From a virus: a DNA stretch of 28,343 nucleotides. The stretch's first letter is position 1; every line of letters begins with the position of its first letter. The position numbers and the translations under genes are program-made. The notes under the pieces are model-generated. The model was not told where the DNA came from. It did no database searches and worked only from the letters and a program-made list of their open reading frames with translations. This document shows, piece by piece, positions 14,738-24,736 of the stretch. The DNA lies in IMG/VR virus record IMGVR_UViG_3300023116_000257, positions 1 through 28,343 of that record, one strand, 5' to 3'.

Positions 14738-15469
14738 TTAGCCTGCGGCCTGAGCCTTAGCCTGACGAGCAGCACCATCATAGTCTGCCGCCGTCAACCC
14801 ACGACGGGTCAACATTGTTTTAACACCGCGAGGCGTTTTCTCGATTGCATCAGCAATCTGCTCCACGGTCATGCCAGAAACGTCACCAAGTTCTGACAGG
14901 GGATCAGCCCGGTTAGCACTCTTGGTTTTTTCCTGGCGGGGGATAGCATCAATCTCACCGGAACGAAGCAGGCTGAGAGCCTTGCCACGGATGCTGTTGA
15001 TCGAACGATCAAGAGCGTCAGCAATCTGCTCAACAAATGCACCGTCGTTCACCATGCTGATGAAAGTATCTTCTTCCTCCGGAGAGTAAGTCCGAACACT
15101 TTCAGGCTTGGGAGCCGGCTTGACATGACCAGTCAGTTCCATTGACAGAATCTTGCCTTGGATTGACTTTGCGCTAAATGCGCCACCTTCGAAGTTCTCA
15201 GCAATCTGAGCATAGGTGTATTCACCGCTGTTATCCGTAACAAAAGCGGCCAGGGTTGCTTCCTGCTGCTCGGAAAAAGCCCGAGTAGCACGTGCAGAAG
15301 CGAGTTCCACTTCGTAACCCATTTTACGCAGTTTGCTAGAAACTGAACGGGTAGAAGTTTCAAGATGCTCTGCGGCGTCAGCCACAGTAGCTTGGGAGAC
15401 AGGGGACTCGTCTCCGACAAAGTTTTCGAGCGAAGAAGTACGCTCATCAGTCCACTTGGGAAGTGCCAT
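14738..15469 (-). CDS. Protein with four tandem SANT/HTH-like repeats, probable DNA-binding
   Basis: The 243-aa chain contains four repeats of a three-helix pattern. R1 (4-55) has KWTDERTSSLENFV and RSVSSKLRKMGY. R2 (64-115) has FSEQQEATLAAFV and YAQIAENF. R3 (128-172) has YSPEEEDTFISMV and VEQIADALDRSINSIRGKAL. R4 (about 198-226) has TVEQIADAIEKTPRGVKTML. Repeats 1-3 begin with an aromatic plus acidic segment like Myb/SANT domains, and all carry an xxIAxxL...S-kL helix-turn-helix-like core. It is probably a DNA-binding regulator or DNA-organising protein. TAGGAG precedes the ATG, the region is GC-richer than its neighbours, and a strong terminator follows, all consistent with high, separately tuned expression. 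No exact family was identified. Confidence 0.8.
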   Translation of the reverse strand: MALPKWTDERTSSLENFVGDESPVSQATVADAAEHLETSTRSVSSKLRKMGYEVELASARATRAFSEQQEATLAAFVTDNSGEYTYAQIAENFEGGAFSAKSIQGKILSMELTGHVKPAPKPESVRTYSPEEEDTFISMVNDGAFVEQIADALDRSINSIRGKALSLLRSGEIDAIPRQEKTKSANRADPLSELGDVSGMTVEQIADAIEKTPRGVKTMLTRRGLTAADYDGAARQAKAQAAG

Positions 15470-16226
15470 AATTTTCTCCTAGTAATTCCGATATATCGGT
15501 TACAATAGTTATGCCGTTCGACACGGCTCGTTGCGTTTTAGAGGATTCAATACCACTCTCATTCACTAGAATAGACACATCCTTTGTCATACTGGATTTT
15601 ACAATGTATCCGTACTTTTCTAGTATTTCTGTAGCTTGCGCTTTAGTTTTGTAACTTTTCAGCTTCCCGGAAATGCAGACTGTGCCTCGATTTTCCTTTG
15701 TACTTACTAAGTTACGTCTCTTGAATTTAAAGTCAAAAGGGTATAGAGATAATACATCATGATTATCTTTAAGCCAGCTGAGAAGGTTGTTAGTTGCCTT
15801 TGGGCCAAGCCCTGCTCTCGCGCAAGTCGTCTCGTTTATATCAATCAATTTCTCACAGACTGTAGACAACTTTTCGGTGGCAGTTCGGCCAATCAAAGGA
15901 ATACTGAAACTAGGTAATACCATGTTTAGTGGTGCGTTCCTCGATTTCTCAATTTCATAGAATAGTTTTTGACCCAGTTTAAGGGAGGATAGAGCATCCG
16001 CCAAATATTCCGTATCTAGATAGTACAAATCGTAAGGCTCTGCAATGTTCAACTTACGAATTGTAGACGGGCCTAGACCTTTAATCTTCATAGTCTTGGC
16101 GAAATGCTCTATCCGTTTTGCTACTTTACTGGAGCAAGCGGGGTTCTTGCAGTAAAGCAGATGGTTTTCCCACTCAAGTTCAAACTTACAGCTTGGGCAG
16201 TGAGTGGGCGGCGTAATTTCTAACAT
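15447..16226 (-). CDS. ligB: NAD+-dependent DNA ligase, C-terminal subunit (zinc finger, HhH, BRCT)
   Basis: This 259-aa protein matches the C-terminal half of bacterial LigA. A Cys4 zinc finger (C10, C13, C26, C31) is followed by a helix-hairpin-helix region (KIKGLGPSTIRKL, FSIPLIGRTATEKL, RAGLGPKATNNLL). A BRCT domain occupies about 170-250 (GTVCISGKLKSYKTKAQATE, then KDVSILVNESGIESSKTQRA). The adenylation and OB domains are on the separate gene at 16307-17242. T5 has a comparable two-subunit NAD+ ligase. A TTG at 16229 precedes the ATG at 16226; AGGA lies 9 nt before the ATG, which I prefer. It is the first gene of the P3 unit and overlaps the SANT-like gene by 23 nt. Confidence 0.9.
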   Translation of the reverse strand: MLEITPPTHCPSCKFELEWENHLLYCKNPACSSKVAKRIEHFAKTMKIKGLGPSTIRKLNIAEPYDLYYLDTEYLADALSSLKLGQKLFYEIEKSRNAPLNMVLPSFSIPLIGRTATEKLSTVCEKLIDINETTCARAGLGPKATNNLLSWLKDNHDVLSLYPFDFKFKRRNLVSTKENRGTVCISGKLKSYKTKAQATEILEKYGYIVKSSMTKDVSILVNESGIESSKTQRAVSNGITIVTDISELLGENYGTSQVD

Positions 16227-16253
16227 CAATACTTTTCCTATGTCTGAATATAT

Positions 16254-16306: not shown

Positions 16307-17242
16307 TCATCCTACGCGAGCCACGATTCTAGGAATAATGTCCCCACTTCGGATAACTTCCACTTGGCAACCTATTTCAAGGTTAAGCCCTTCAATATAT
16401 TCAATGTTGTGTAGCGTGGCTCTTGAAACGTTAGCTCCATCAATCGCCACAGGGTCGAGTACAGCTACGGGGCTAACTACGCCTGACTTCCCGACTTGCC
16501 ACACAACATCACGTAGAGTTGTTACTACGCCTTTCTTTTGCGTTTTGAGTGCAAAAGCCCCTCTAGGATGGTGAGAGGTATACCCCAACCTTTTGTACTC
16601 TGAATTATTATCCAGTCGATAAACCTGCCCATCGGTAGGAAAATCTGTAGCATCAAAAGTTGTTACAACATTGAACCCATTATTCTCGTGCAAGACTTGC
16701 ATATCGTAACCATATGAAGCGAAACCAGAATCAACCCACTCATATGCAACGAAGTGCATATTCTTTGAACGGGATTTGAACTCGTCTAAGTCTTTAAGGT
16801 TGAGAGAACCGGCAGCATAGTTCCTGGCATTGTCTATAGTGCTAGGAACCACGACTTCGCCATTTATCTGGCAAATACCGGGGTTGGGTTCAGAGAAACA
16901 AAATGGGGCAAGAAGCTCCATTTTTTCTGTAATGTCGCGACCAATCTTACCGTCACCTCTTGTAAGTGCCATTACTAGATCGCCTCCGACATATAGCAGA
17001 GATACTGCCGCACCATCCAACTTCGGAGTAACGACACAATTCTTTAAGGGAATAGGACTATCACTCAAATCAAAAACTTTTTGAAGTGAGTACATCCTAT
17101 GAAAATGCTCAACACCGTCTGTTACCGTATATCCTACGGTCTTGTATCCAAAGTGTGACGCCAGTATATCAAACTCTGCGTCTGACATAATGGGTTTACC
17201 TTCGTAATACTTTTTAGATGCAAGGTCAAGAAAATTGTGCAT
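16307..17242 (-). CDS. ligA: NAD+-dependent DNA ligase, adenylation/OB subunit
   Basis: This 311-aa protein matches the N-terminal half of bacterial LigA. Domain Ia has YYEGKPIMSDAEFD (12-25) for NAD+ binding. The adenylation domain has MYSLQKVFD and the lysine motif TPKLDGAAVS (K74), then GDGKIGRDITE, INGEVVVP and FVAYEW. The OB fold has WQVGKSGVVSPVAVLDPV and ends at SGDIIPRI. Zinc finger, HhH and BRCT domains are on the next gene (15447-16226). The nucleotidyl lysine should be adenylated by NAD+ and the complex should seal nicks. GGAG lies 8 nt before the ATG. The gene stands alone in the P4 unit, and no frameshift joins it to the second half. Confidence 0.93.
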   Translation of the reverse strand: MHNFLDLASKKYYEGKPIMSDAEFDILASHFGYKTVGYTVTDGVEHFHRMYSLQKVFDLSDSPIPLKNCVVTPKLDGAAVSLLYVGGDLVMALTRGDGKIGRDITEKMELLAPFCFSEPNPGICQINGEVVVPSTIDNARNYAAGSLNLKDLDEFKSRSKNMHFVAYEWVDSGFASYGYDMQVLHENNGFNVVTTFDATDFPTDGQVYRLDNNSEYKRLGYTSHHPRGAFALKTQKKGVVTTLRDVVWQVGKSGVVSPVAVLDPVAIDGANVSRATLHNIEYIEGLNLEIGCQVEVIRSGDIIPRIVARVG

Positions 17243-22322: not shown

Positions 22323-22742
22323 TTAAAGAATCTCGATTAGTTTTGGCAACTCTGCTTCTGGAATCTGTTTGCTAAACTCTATGTTCAACATTCCGCTTTC
22401 CAGATACGCTCGATCAAGGATTAAGTTTTCCCCAATCGAAAAAGTGCGTTGAAAGTTCTTAGTGCTAAGACCTTTATGGGTATAGCTCTCTCCTTTTTCA
22501 AGATATTCCTCTTTCATCTCTCCCCTTACAAGCAAAGTAGACTTTTCGAGTTCCAGAGTAAGATCTTCTTTATCCCACCCTGGAACCGCTACTTCAATCC
22601 TGTATCCTGTAGCGGAATTGATAATATTATATCGAGGATAAGAATGTTGATCTATGGTGGGCATTGTAAATACTCGATCCAAAAAATCGTCTGCTCCCAG
22701 CATAAACTTTCTCAGGTCATTAACATTTTGTAACTTCGTCAT
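22323..22742 (-). CDS. Small heat-shock protein (Hsp20/IbpA family)
   Basis: The 139-aa protein has an α-crystallin domain: YPRYNIINSATGYRIEVAVPGWDKEDLTLELEKSTLLVRGE, then GLSTKNFQRTFSIGENLILDRAYLESGMLNIEF (the AxxxxGxLxI-type end motif). It has a short C-terminal tail. Hsp20 proteins are ATP-independent holdases that keep unfolding proteins soluble. The start is ATG 22742, with GGAG 7 nt before it; the open frame upstream to 22793 is not needed. It overlaps the 73-aa gene by 23 nt. Phage Hsp20 genes are known from marine myoviruses, and its placement in a lysis and tmRNA unit suggests protein quality control late in infection (inference). Confidence 0.92.
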   Translation of the reverse strand: MTKLQNVNDLRKFMLGADDFLDRVFTMPTIDQHSYPRYNIINSATGYRIEVAVPGWDKEDLTLELEKSTLLVRGEMKEEYLEKGESYTHKGLSTKNFQRTFSIGENLILDRAYLESGMLNIEFSKQIPEAELPKLIEIL

Positions 22743-22941
22743 TTTTTTCTCCGTGCGCCCGTTCGGTACGCTCTTTAGATGCCATACGGTCATCTATATT
22801 ATTTTTGGGTAGTTGTCCTACCCACGACATAAAGCTAGCTTTTGGCCCGGTCTGATACCGTGGCTTGCTAGCTGCACCTTTCTCCTCTCGTTCGAGAAGA
22901 GACATATAATATTCGTGCATCATTTCGTTTCTAGTTTTCAC
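22720..22941 (-). CDS. 73-aa charged protein of unknown function
   Basis: This is a highly charged, probably flexible protein (MKTRNEMMHEYYMSLLEREEKG, SKERTERAHGEKNDEV) with no recognised domain. It is coupled to the methyltransferase gene by a 4-nt overlap (ATGA) and to Hsp20 by a 23-nt overlap. The frame is coding judged by tight packing, not by similarity. Confidence 0.7.
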   Translation of the reverse strand: MKTRNEMMHEYYMSLLEREEKGAASKPRYQTGPKASFMSWVGQLPKNNIDDRMASKERTERAHGEKNDEVTKC

Positions 22942-23601: not shown

Positions 23602-24042
23602 TTACTCCGTATAAAAAATGTGCTCGCCTATCACTACAGAAGGTTCGTAATGATAAGACCAAAAAGGTATAACTTTCTTACTATGATAATAGGTCGATCC
23701 ATTTGTTGGATCAAAAAACTTTATGATAGGCCAAGTATGTATGACAAAACTGGACAGCCAACTACTTGACTCCCATGCTTTTAGTTCTAGTTTTGTTTCT
23801 TTAGGAGCATCTGACTTTCCGTCATGCGTCCAAGAAAATTGTCTAGGTTGCCATACTACTTCGCATACAGTATCAGGAAATCGCTCCGATACTACTCTAT
23901 TTAGAGTTGTGTATGCAACAGCTAGTTGCCCTGTAAGGGATTCCCCTCTCGCCTCAAAATATATATTCTGCGTCAAGCAATAAGTTTCGTCCGTGCAGTA
24001 GCAAGATAGGGGAAGAAATATTGCCAGTAAATTTTTGACCAT
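23602..24042 (-). CDS. SleB-type cell-wall hydrolase (Hydrolase_2), with signal peptide
   Basis: The 146-aa protein carries an N-terminal hydrophobic signal (MVKNLLAIFLPLSCYC). The Hydrolase_2/SleB core follows: CLTQNIYFEARGES (catalytic Glu30), GQLAVAYTTLNRV, FPDTVCEVVWQPRQFSWT. It then has the usual AY..A and GSTYYHSKKVIPFW-type end motif. The family are lytic transglycosylase-like enzymes acting on peptidoglycan. It is a second cell-wall enzyme alongside the GH24 endolysin; the signal peptide suggests holin-independent export. GGAGGAG precedes the ATG. It follows the tmRNA gene directly, so its transcript and tmRNA would be co-transcribed from P7. Confidence 0.88.
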   Translation of the reverse strand: MVKNLLAIFLPLSCYCTDETYCLTQNIYFEARGESLTGQLAVAYTTLNRVVSERFPDTVCEVVWQPRQFSWTHDGKSDAPKETKLELKAWESSSWLSSFVIHTWPIIKFFDPTNGSTYYHSKKVIPFWSYHYEPSVVIGEHIFYTE

Positions 24043-24106
24043 AGTTCTCCTCCGTAAAATTTAATAGCCCATTTCGGTAAGAAGGCTGGGCAAGACCTCC
24101 TCAGAA

Positions 24107-24151
24107 TTAAGCGGCCAGCGCCATCTCCTGATAGTAGTTGTCATCGTTTGC
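24107..24151 (-). other. tmRNA tag reading frame
   Basis: The resume codon GCA at 24151 opens a 14-codon frame encoding ANDDNYYQEMALAA, ending with TAA at 24107. It is preceded by AAAAAACTATAGTTGC, close to the usual tag upstream region. The ALAA end is the degradation signal recognised by ClpXP-type proteases, and AND-N starts are common in alphaproteobacterial tags. Confidence 0.93.
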
Positions 24152-24241
24152 AACTATAGTTTTTTGCAGAATTACGGTCTAGCTTACCGTCCTCTCCAGT
24201 TTCCTATTTATCGTCCGTCGAATCCATTTCAGCCCCATCAG

Positions 24242-24328
24242 AAGCATATTAGCGTGAAACTTTCAGCCATCTTTAACTTACGCTAGGTTTCAGGTTGCGA
24301 TCCTAAATTGCCTATTACTAATATGCTT
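24242..24328 (-). repeat. Inverted repeat framing the tmRNA intervening segment
   Basis: AAGCATATTAG (24328-24318) is an exact 11-nt complement of CTAATATGCTT (24252-24242). It extends the acceptor stem of the precursor, with a small internal loop holding CCA-A and CTGAT. The 65-nt loop between is removed in other permuted tmRNAs to give two pieces. The left arm contains the stop codon of the BFD-like gene. Confidence 0.88.
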
Positions 24329-24494
24329 TTGGTGGAGCTGGCGGCTTCGAAGCCGCGTCCGCCCGATTTTCAGTCCCTTTCATCAAGGAAATAAATTCTA
24401 TACAAGTGCCGCACTCTGTACCGCAAGCACTTATAAGTTCAGGATTATTTTTCAAATCCTGGTCTGTGATTTCATTACAGACACATATGTACAC
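24318..24494 (-). CDS. Bacterioferritin-associated ferredoxin (BFD)-like [2Fe-2S] protein
   Basis: The 58-aa frame starts VYICVCNEITDQDL and continues PELISACGTECGTCIEF. Cysteines C4, C6, C28 and C31 fit the BFD pattern CxC...CxxC for one [2Fe-2S] cluster, with C24 extra and a spacing shorter than E. coli Bfd. The domain ends near residue 36. The rest (GTENRADAASKPPAPPKAY) is low in complexity because it is read through the tmRNA acceptor sequence. The GTG start shares one base with the stop of the 48-aa gene (TAGTG); the ribosome site is weak (GAAGAAG), so translation is probably coupled. BFD proteins pass electrons to release iron from bacterioferritin, or act as assembly or regulatory modules. 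Confidence 0.72.
   Translation of the reverse strand: MYICVCNEITDQDLKNNPELISACGTECGTCIEFISLMKGTENRADAASKPPAPPKAY
24330..24370 (-). other. tmRNA acceptor piece (T-arm and CCA end)
   Basis: The segment contains GGGC, GGAC, the T-arm, the 3' acceptor strand CAGCTCC, discriminator A and encoded CCA. The T-arm GCGGCTTCGAAGCCGC is a perfect 16-nt palindrome, so the loop would be 6 nt rather than 7. The last 15 or so codons of the BFD-like gene overlap this region. The upstream limit is not determined. Confidence 0.85.
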
Positions 24495-24640
24495 TAATCT
24501 TCTTCAAGTTCAAGCACACCTTCGTCAATTAGATATTGTACTGTTCCTTCGATTCCGGCTCTGCGTCCTAGATTCCAGGCATGAATCCCGCAACCTATTA
24601 GACAGGCGGCAAACAGTAAATATGCTTCATAAATATTCAA
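24494..24640 (-). CDS. 48-aa single-pass membrane protein
   Basis: The start is TTG at 24640 with AAGGAG 7-8 nt upstream. The peptide NIYEAYLLFAACLIGCGIHA is a membrane helix, followed by WNLGRRAGIEGTVQYLIDEG and an acidic end. Similar GRxxGIExTVxYLIDxG tails recur in small phage membrane proteins as I recall, but no function is known. It is the first gene after P7 (predicted start near 24690). A holin or anti-holin role is possible because the unit contains lysis genes, without direct evidence. Confidence 0.7.
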   Translation of the reverse strand: MNIYEAYLLFAACLIGCGIHAWNLGRRAGIEGTVQYLIDEGVLELEED

Positions 24641-24696: not shown

Positions 24697-24736
24697 ATTT
24701 TAACAAAAATCAACATGAAAGTCAAGAACTATTTTT
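24697..24736 (-). promoter_or_regulatory. Promoter P7 (divergent with P8)
   Basis: The minus strand reads AAAAATAGTTC, TTGACT (24725-24720), 17 nt, TAAAAT (24702-24697). Predicted start is near 24690. It drives the small membrane protein, BFD-like gene, tmRNA, lysis and Hsp20 unit down to about 20.77 kb. The -35 elements of P7 and P8 are about 57 nt apart. Confidence 0.87.

Follow-up and report, generated by a model that had tools for sequence, protein, structure and literature searches.

A phage-encoded, circularly permuted tmRNA gene adjacent to a SleB-type hydrolase gene

Introduction

Does a phage genome encode its own tmRNA in circularly permuted form, and what would such an RNA contribute to infection? 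The question is raised by a minus-strand locus in a virus record of 28,343 bases, probably a fragment; this whole record is referred to as the window. A sequence-only reading had proposed a phage-encoded permuted tmRNA at this locus, and had regarded this form as much less familiar in phages than the one-piece form. The first proposal was borne out by ARAGORN, by the Rfam model RF04321 and by compensatory changes among relatives. The supposed rarity was not: a two-piece tmRNA in the OM43 (Methylophilales) phage Melnitz was published in 2022, when 53 of 133 unique phage tmRNA structures were called two-piece, 50 of the 53 from marine or aquatic samples (PMC9004378), and permuted genes are frequent in IMG/VR contigs. 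A 2014 survey listed ten phages with ssrA (PMC4131195), and a 2025 tmRNA database contains 79 sequences from phages (PMC11915505). The window gene is a divergent addition to the known phage two-piece tmRNAs, and it adds a complete example to the viral ribosome-rescue RNAs, whose existence is on record but which have received little study.

Results

The phage record and the neighbourhood of the locus

The window carries genes for a DNA polymerase, an SbcC-like nuclease subunit, a DNA helicase, a primase, a DnaB-type helicase, ThyX, a 5'-3' exonuclease, an NAD-dependent ligase, a SleB-type hydrolase and a MazG-like protein. The DNA polymerase is 44-45% identical to the polymerases of Vibrio, Aeromonas and Salmonella phages of ~110-120 kb, which we take to be of the T5-like kind, and the window therefore belongs to a phage whose polymerase is T5-like and which lacks a close isolate. 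The tmRNA gene lies directly upstream of sleB, whose start codon is at 24042; phage T5 also encodes a SleB homologue. The candidate promoter listed for the locus (Table 1) is weak, as the region contained 6 promoter-like hits versus 4.3 expected. A 48-aa ORF just upstream of the tmRNA gene (24494-24640, minus strand) has a possible ribosome-binding site and no Pfam match. Elsewhere on the minus strand, the NAD-dependent DNA ligase is seemingly split between neighbouring ORFs at 15447-16229 and 16307-17242, the adenylation and OB domains being followed by what may be the C-terminal part, which has no Pfam match, and an Hsp20-type small heat shock protein (phrog_432) is encoded at 22323-22793.

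Detection of the permuted tmRNA gene

ARAGORN reported one RNA gene within the 28,343 bases, a permuted tmRNA of class 'tmRNA*' with the tag ANDDNYYQEMALAA. When the window was searched with cmscan, RF04321 (tmRNA_permuted) was the single Rfam match at the gathering threshold, with a score of 101.3 bits (E 6e-19; cut-off 47) and an alignment that spans the entire model (positions 1-213 of 213). The sequence-only reading had proposed the Rfam permuted models as a check, and the outcome was divided: RF04321 agreed, whereas the betaproteobacterial model RF01850, the best-scoring clade model, reached 54.5 bits against a cut-off of 84, and the alphaproteobacterial model RF01849 reached 46.9 bits against a cut-off of 50. 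RF04321 also scores weakly in many Pseudomonadota genomes (28-65 bits, beneath a gap starting at 113), and its matches in one-piece tmRNA controls such as E. coli were under the cut-off. Because of the weak matches elsewhere, a score near the cut-off would be insufficient, but 101 bits combined with a readable anatomy suffices. All of the parts that had been named beforehand were located on the minus strand, from 24389 to 24067, and the form and anatomy of the gene are established. Judged from its sequence, the gene is complete, rearranged and real, and it looks functional.

Table 1. Positions of the tmRNA gene, its parts and the flanking elements in the window.
Feature	Position	Strand	Source or remark
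Candidate sigma-70-like promoter TTGACT-17-TAAAAT	24697..24725	(-)	upstream of 48-aa ORF and tmRNA; weak
Permuted tmRNA gene	24016..24421	(-)	ARAGORN; outer ends approximate, low end overlaps sleB start codon
RF04321 match	24107-24389	(-)	covariance model
Acceptor (3' CCA) piece	24330..24389	(-)	RF04321 alignment and parse
Joining-helix strand UCCUU	24389-24385	(-)	within acceptor piece; RF04321 alignment
T arm GCGGC-UUCGAA-GCCGC	24356-24341	(-)	within acceptor piece
Acceptor 3' strand CAGCUCC (DNA CAGCTCC)	24340-24334	(-)	parse
ACCA end	24333-24330	(-)	parse
Intervening sequence (IVS), 93 nt, expected to be removed	24237..24329	(-)	parse
IVS stem 5' strand AAGCATATTAGT	24317..24328	(-)	parse; covariation in relatives
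IVS stem 3' strand GCTAATATGCTT, then CTGAT, then GGGG of the next half	24242..24253	(-)	parse; covariation in relatives
Acceptor 5' strand GGGGCUG (DNA GGGGCTG)	24236-24230	(-)	parse
Signature of tmRNA 5' half, ATGGATTCGACGG	24215..24227	(-)	RF04321 alignment
Tag frame ANDDNYYQEMALAA and UAA	24107..24151	(-)	ARAGORN
H-type pseudoknot 3' of tag; S1 TGAGGAGG/CCTTCTTA, S2 GCCCA/TGGGC	24067..24103	(-)	pairing search and relatives
SleB-type cell wall hydrolase (Hydrolase_2 / endolysin), next gene downstream	23602..24042	(-)	PF07486; phrog_938

The tRNA-like domain, tag and pseudoknot

The order of the two halves is as the sequence-only reading had described it: on the minus strand the CCA-bearing half lies upstream of the GGGGCTG half, and the IVS lies between them. 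The two acceptor strands match at all seven positions, G3-U70 included, and the expected signature of the 5' half is present. The PK1-like stem that had been noticed corresponds to a CGGU/ACCG hairpin visible in the RF04321 alignment. Alanyl-tRNA synthetase (AlaRS) reads the G3-U70 pair, and the window gene has this identity pair together with A73, followed by an encoded CCA. All 63 parsed viral genes have G3-U70, and 62 of the 63 have ACCA. The T loop has 6 nucleotides (UUCGAA) and is closed by a C-G pair, which differs from the usual 7-nucleotide loop.

Two side observations concern these elements. The T arm of the window gene is a palindrome, GCGGCTTCGAAGCCGC, and among 63 viral and 48 bacterial genes the T-arm form CTTCGAAG occurs only in the window gene and in locus L046. 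The viral permuted tmRNA L159 is without an encoded CCA and has ATTG after the acceptor strand; its tag of 21 residues ends in VAA and is similar to that of the cyanobacterial gene L220.

The 14-residue tag frame ending in ALAA was recovered as predicted, with a resume codon and a terminal stop. Most relatives have tags that end in LAA, and the tags vary between phages, as they do among bacteria. The predicted H-type pseudoknot is likewise present and complete. Its score was 31, compared to a maximum of 21 among 8 shuffles; as there were only 8 shuffles, the comparison with relatives carries more weight. In the relatives the CCTT strand of the first stem is constant, and the second stem is fully re-paired with unrelated sequences (GCCCA/TGGGC, TGGTCC/GGACCA, GCCGGGA/TCCCGGC and GCAAGGTG/CACCTTGC).

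Relatives among viruses

A BLASTN search of 50,697 phage records gave no full-length relative of the locus, and the comparative data were therefore drawn from IMG/VR and a few isolates. A permuted tmRNA was found within ~1.2 kb at 35 of 80 viral SleB-relative loci, 28 upstream and 7 downstream, in a set that is partly redundant and includes two near-copies of the window. The tmRNA of two close relatives is identical to that of the window, so comparative support comes solely from more distant phages. An IMG/VR scan for the 5'-half signature, with a pattern biased toward genes whose junction reads TTGATGGGG, returned 64 loci, and a permuted tmRNA was called in 55 of these. Three sleB-adjacent genes from IMG/VR (L028, L038 and L042) share the gene order, the kind of pseudoknot and ANDD-type tags with the window gene, but differ from it in the length of the IVS (60, 99 and 12 nt), in tag length and in most of the sequence.

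Among isolates, RF04321 was above the cut-off in Pelagibacter phage Mosig, Pseudomonas phage SM1, Xanthomonas phage Rb1, Alcaligenes phage QDWS595 and Caulobacter phages CcrBL9 and CcrRogue, and ARAGORN concurred except for CcrRogue. Only Mosig has a tmRNA annotation (SsrA); CcrRogue, CcrBL9, SM1, Rb1 and QDWS595 (L089, L091, L092, L093, L094) are without one. The tmRNA of Pseudomonas and Xanthomonas themselves is one-piece, so that SM1 and Rb1 carry a form unlike that of their hosts.

The intervening sequence and its stem

The inverted repeat that joins the two halves had been put at 11 bp; it is present, but its length is 12 bp including one terminal T-G pair. None of 300 IVS shuffles reached the inverted repeat observed in the window gene. 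The predicted folding energy of the precursor is 18 kcal/mol lower than that of its dinucleotide shuffles (z -3.4, 0/100), and in this fold the acceptor stem stacks on the IVS stem. When distinct phage genes were aligned by the ends of the IVS, each of 11 stem positions was paired in 32-38 of 38 genes; these 38 are the genes, from 40 candidates, with the best stem in one register, and the percentage paired is thus biased upwards, whereas the variety of pair types is unaffected by that choice. Several pair types occur at most positions, for example GC, GT, AT and TA at position 4 and TA, CG, TG, AT and GC at position 7. The conservation of the stem is established, and both the inverted repeat and the pseudoknot stems of the window gene are preserved through compensatory changes in relatives.

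Of the 56 viral genes whose IVS has at least 25 nt, 44 have a stem that was reached in <2% of IVS shuffles; viral genes outside these 56, in which the IVS is short (10-14 nt), lack the stem. Among 31 bacterial genes whose IVS has at least 25 nt, 13 also showed the stem, most or all of them alphaproteobacterial (e.g. AAGCACAC/GTGTGTTT in L239), with a final gene parser that left 6 genes unparsed and misparsed L275 and L220. The idea that the stem is a phage invention was rejected, because alphaproteobacterial genes share it. With the stem present in bacterial genes and absent from short-IVS viral genes, these sequences indicate an optional element of the permuted precursor that is common to phages and bacteria.

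Comparison with bacterial lineages

The window gene shares with betaproteobacterial permuted tmRNAs (RF01850) the permuted order, a tag ending in ALAA and a CCTT.TTACC-like core of the pseudoknot region: its core CCTTCTTACC resembles CCTTGTCACCC of L278, a genome hit that passes the betaproteobacterial model. The window tag, with 14 residues, is longer. Alphaproteobacterial permuted tmRNAs (RF01849) have the same permuted order, and some of them (L239, L245, L257, L266, L269) an IVS stem of the same layout, but the downstream element of the window gene does not resemble the GCAACAGAA form that the alphaproteobacterial genes examined have. Another sleB-associated phage group (tags ANDYDLALAA) does pass the alphaproteobacterial model, with 107.9 bits, and has the GCAACAGAA element. 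The occurrence of both types in phages indicates that the permuted tmRNA entered phages more than once or diverged far. A pattern scan of GTDB genomes (53 of 61 hits one-piece tmRNAs, only two permuted) yielded no host, and a phylum-wide beta_tmRNA search gave a single genome above the cut-off, which does not suffice to build a tree of origin.

Discussion

Taken together, the sequence data make it likely that the window holds a phage-encoded, circularly permuted tmRNA gene whose RNA would be processed to two pieces and which, with the AlaRS and SmpB of the host, would rescue ribosomes during infection. We infer expression, processing and function from the gene. There would be one precursor transcript, probably shared with the downstream sleB. 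In this precursor the IVS stem would position the acceptor 3' strand beside GGGGCUG, so that the tRNA-like domain could fold within it, and aiding this folding ahead of cleavage is the likely role of the stem. By analogy with known permuted tmRNAs (PMC11915505), host RNase P and 3'-processing enzymes would then excise the 93-nt IVS, and two pieces held together by base pairing would remain; that there are two mature pieces is deduced from the form of the gene. Host AlaRS would charge the product with alanine (G3-U70, A73), and host SmpB would deliver it to ribosomes stalled on broken mRNA, where ANDDNYYQEMALAA would be added for proteolysis. The search for smpB that had been suggested for the rest of the genome gave none in the window, itself a 28-kb fragment, or in 15 related viral records (16 in total, mostly fragments); the same search detects smpB in 10 of 14 control genomes. 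Host SmpB is therefore probably needed.

The most likely function, as read from the gene, would be to supplement the tmRNA of the host and, with the AlaRS, SmpB and proteases of the host, to rescue ribosomes in infection; the phage gene might instead replace the host tmRNA. The benefit would probably be that ribosomes are kept circulating while host mRNA is broken down. This ribosome recycling is preferred over selective tagging and over a decoy role. A functional tmRNA that mainly redirects tagging, for example by marking host proteins for degradation so that amino acids are recycled, has been proposed for phage Melnitz (PMC9004378) and would agree with the intact tag and its degradation-type end; as tags vary from phage to phage, like those of bacteria, and nothing in these data singles out host targets, we consider it improbable. 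A decoy that titrates host SmpB or blocks host trans-translation has a precedent in the domain-only tmRNA of mycobacteriophage DS6A (cited in PMC4131195, PMC11915505) and would fit the lack of a phage smpB among the records searched, but a decoy would need neither a complete tag frame nor a pseudoknot kept across relatives, and its probability is very small. A functionless remnant of a passively captured host gene or attachment site is equally hard to credit: although tmRNA genes are often integration sites of genomic islands (PMC11915505) and some phage records match the acceptor half only, at an integrase gene (Pseudomonas phages MR13 and MR15), here both halves, tag and pseudoknot are intact, pairing is kept across divergent phages, the position beside sleB recurs, and the failure of the alphaproteobacterial and betaproteobacterial models shows that it was not copied recently from a host gene of either type.

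Among known phage systems, the complete permuted tmRNAs of the marine phages Melnitz, compared by description only, and Mosig (PMC9004378; MT647606) are the closest points of reference. Mosig resembles the window gene in having an IVS stem, of 11 bp in Mosig, and a tag ending in ALAA; it differs in the tag itself (GEDNFALAA), in passing RF01849, and in its neighbours, a late-promoter accessory gene and thyX instead of sleB. In the literature examined, older two-piece tmRNA papers excepted, no earlier report was found of the recurrent sleB adjacency or of a covarying IVS stem in phage genes, and the recurrence beside sleB together with the conserved precursor stem suggests selection. Pelagibacter phage Mosig and Pseudomonas phage SM1 are examples of isolates in which the supply of trans-translation by a phage can now be tested.

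A broader proposal is offered tentatively and is rather doubtful: aquatic phages may keep their own long-lived two-piece tmRNA lineages, apart from the alphaproteobacterial and betaproteobacterial ones, passed between phages in blocks (L042 versus L052) and with use also in hosts that have a one-piece tmRNA (SM1, Rb1), which would make a phage rescue RNA a general part of takeover.

In L042 (3583-3894) and L052 (20-394), the flank, tag and pseudoknot are nearly identical, and the block from the T arm through the IVS to GGGG differs, with CGCCTCC/GGGGGCG and a 12-nt IVS in L042 versus CAGCTCC/GGGGCTG and a 75-nt IVS with a stem in L052. In sequence this looks like a block exchange that preserves the acceptor pairing. 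A similar pattern was observed for L045 and L046.
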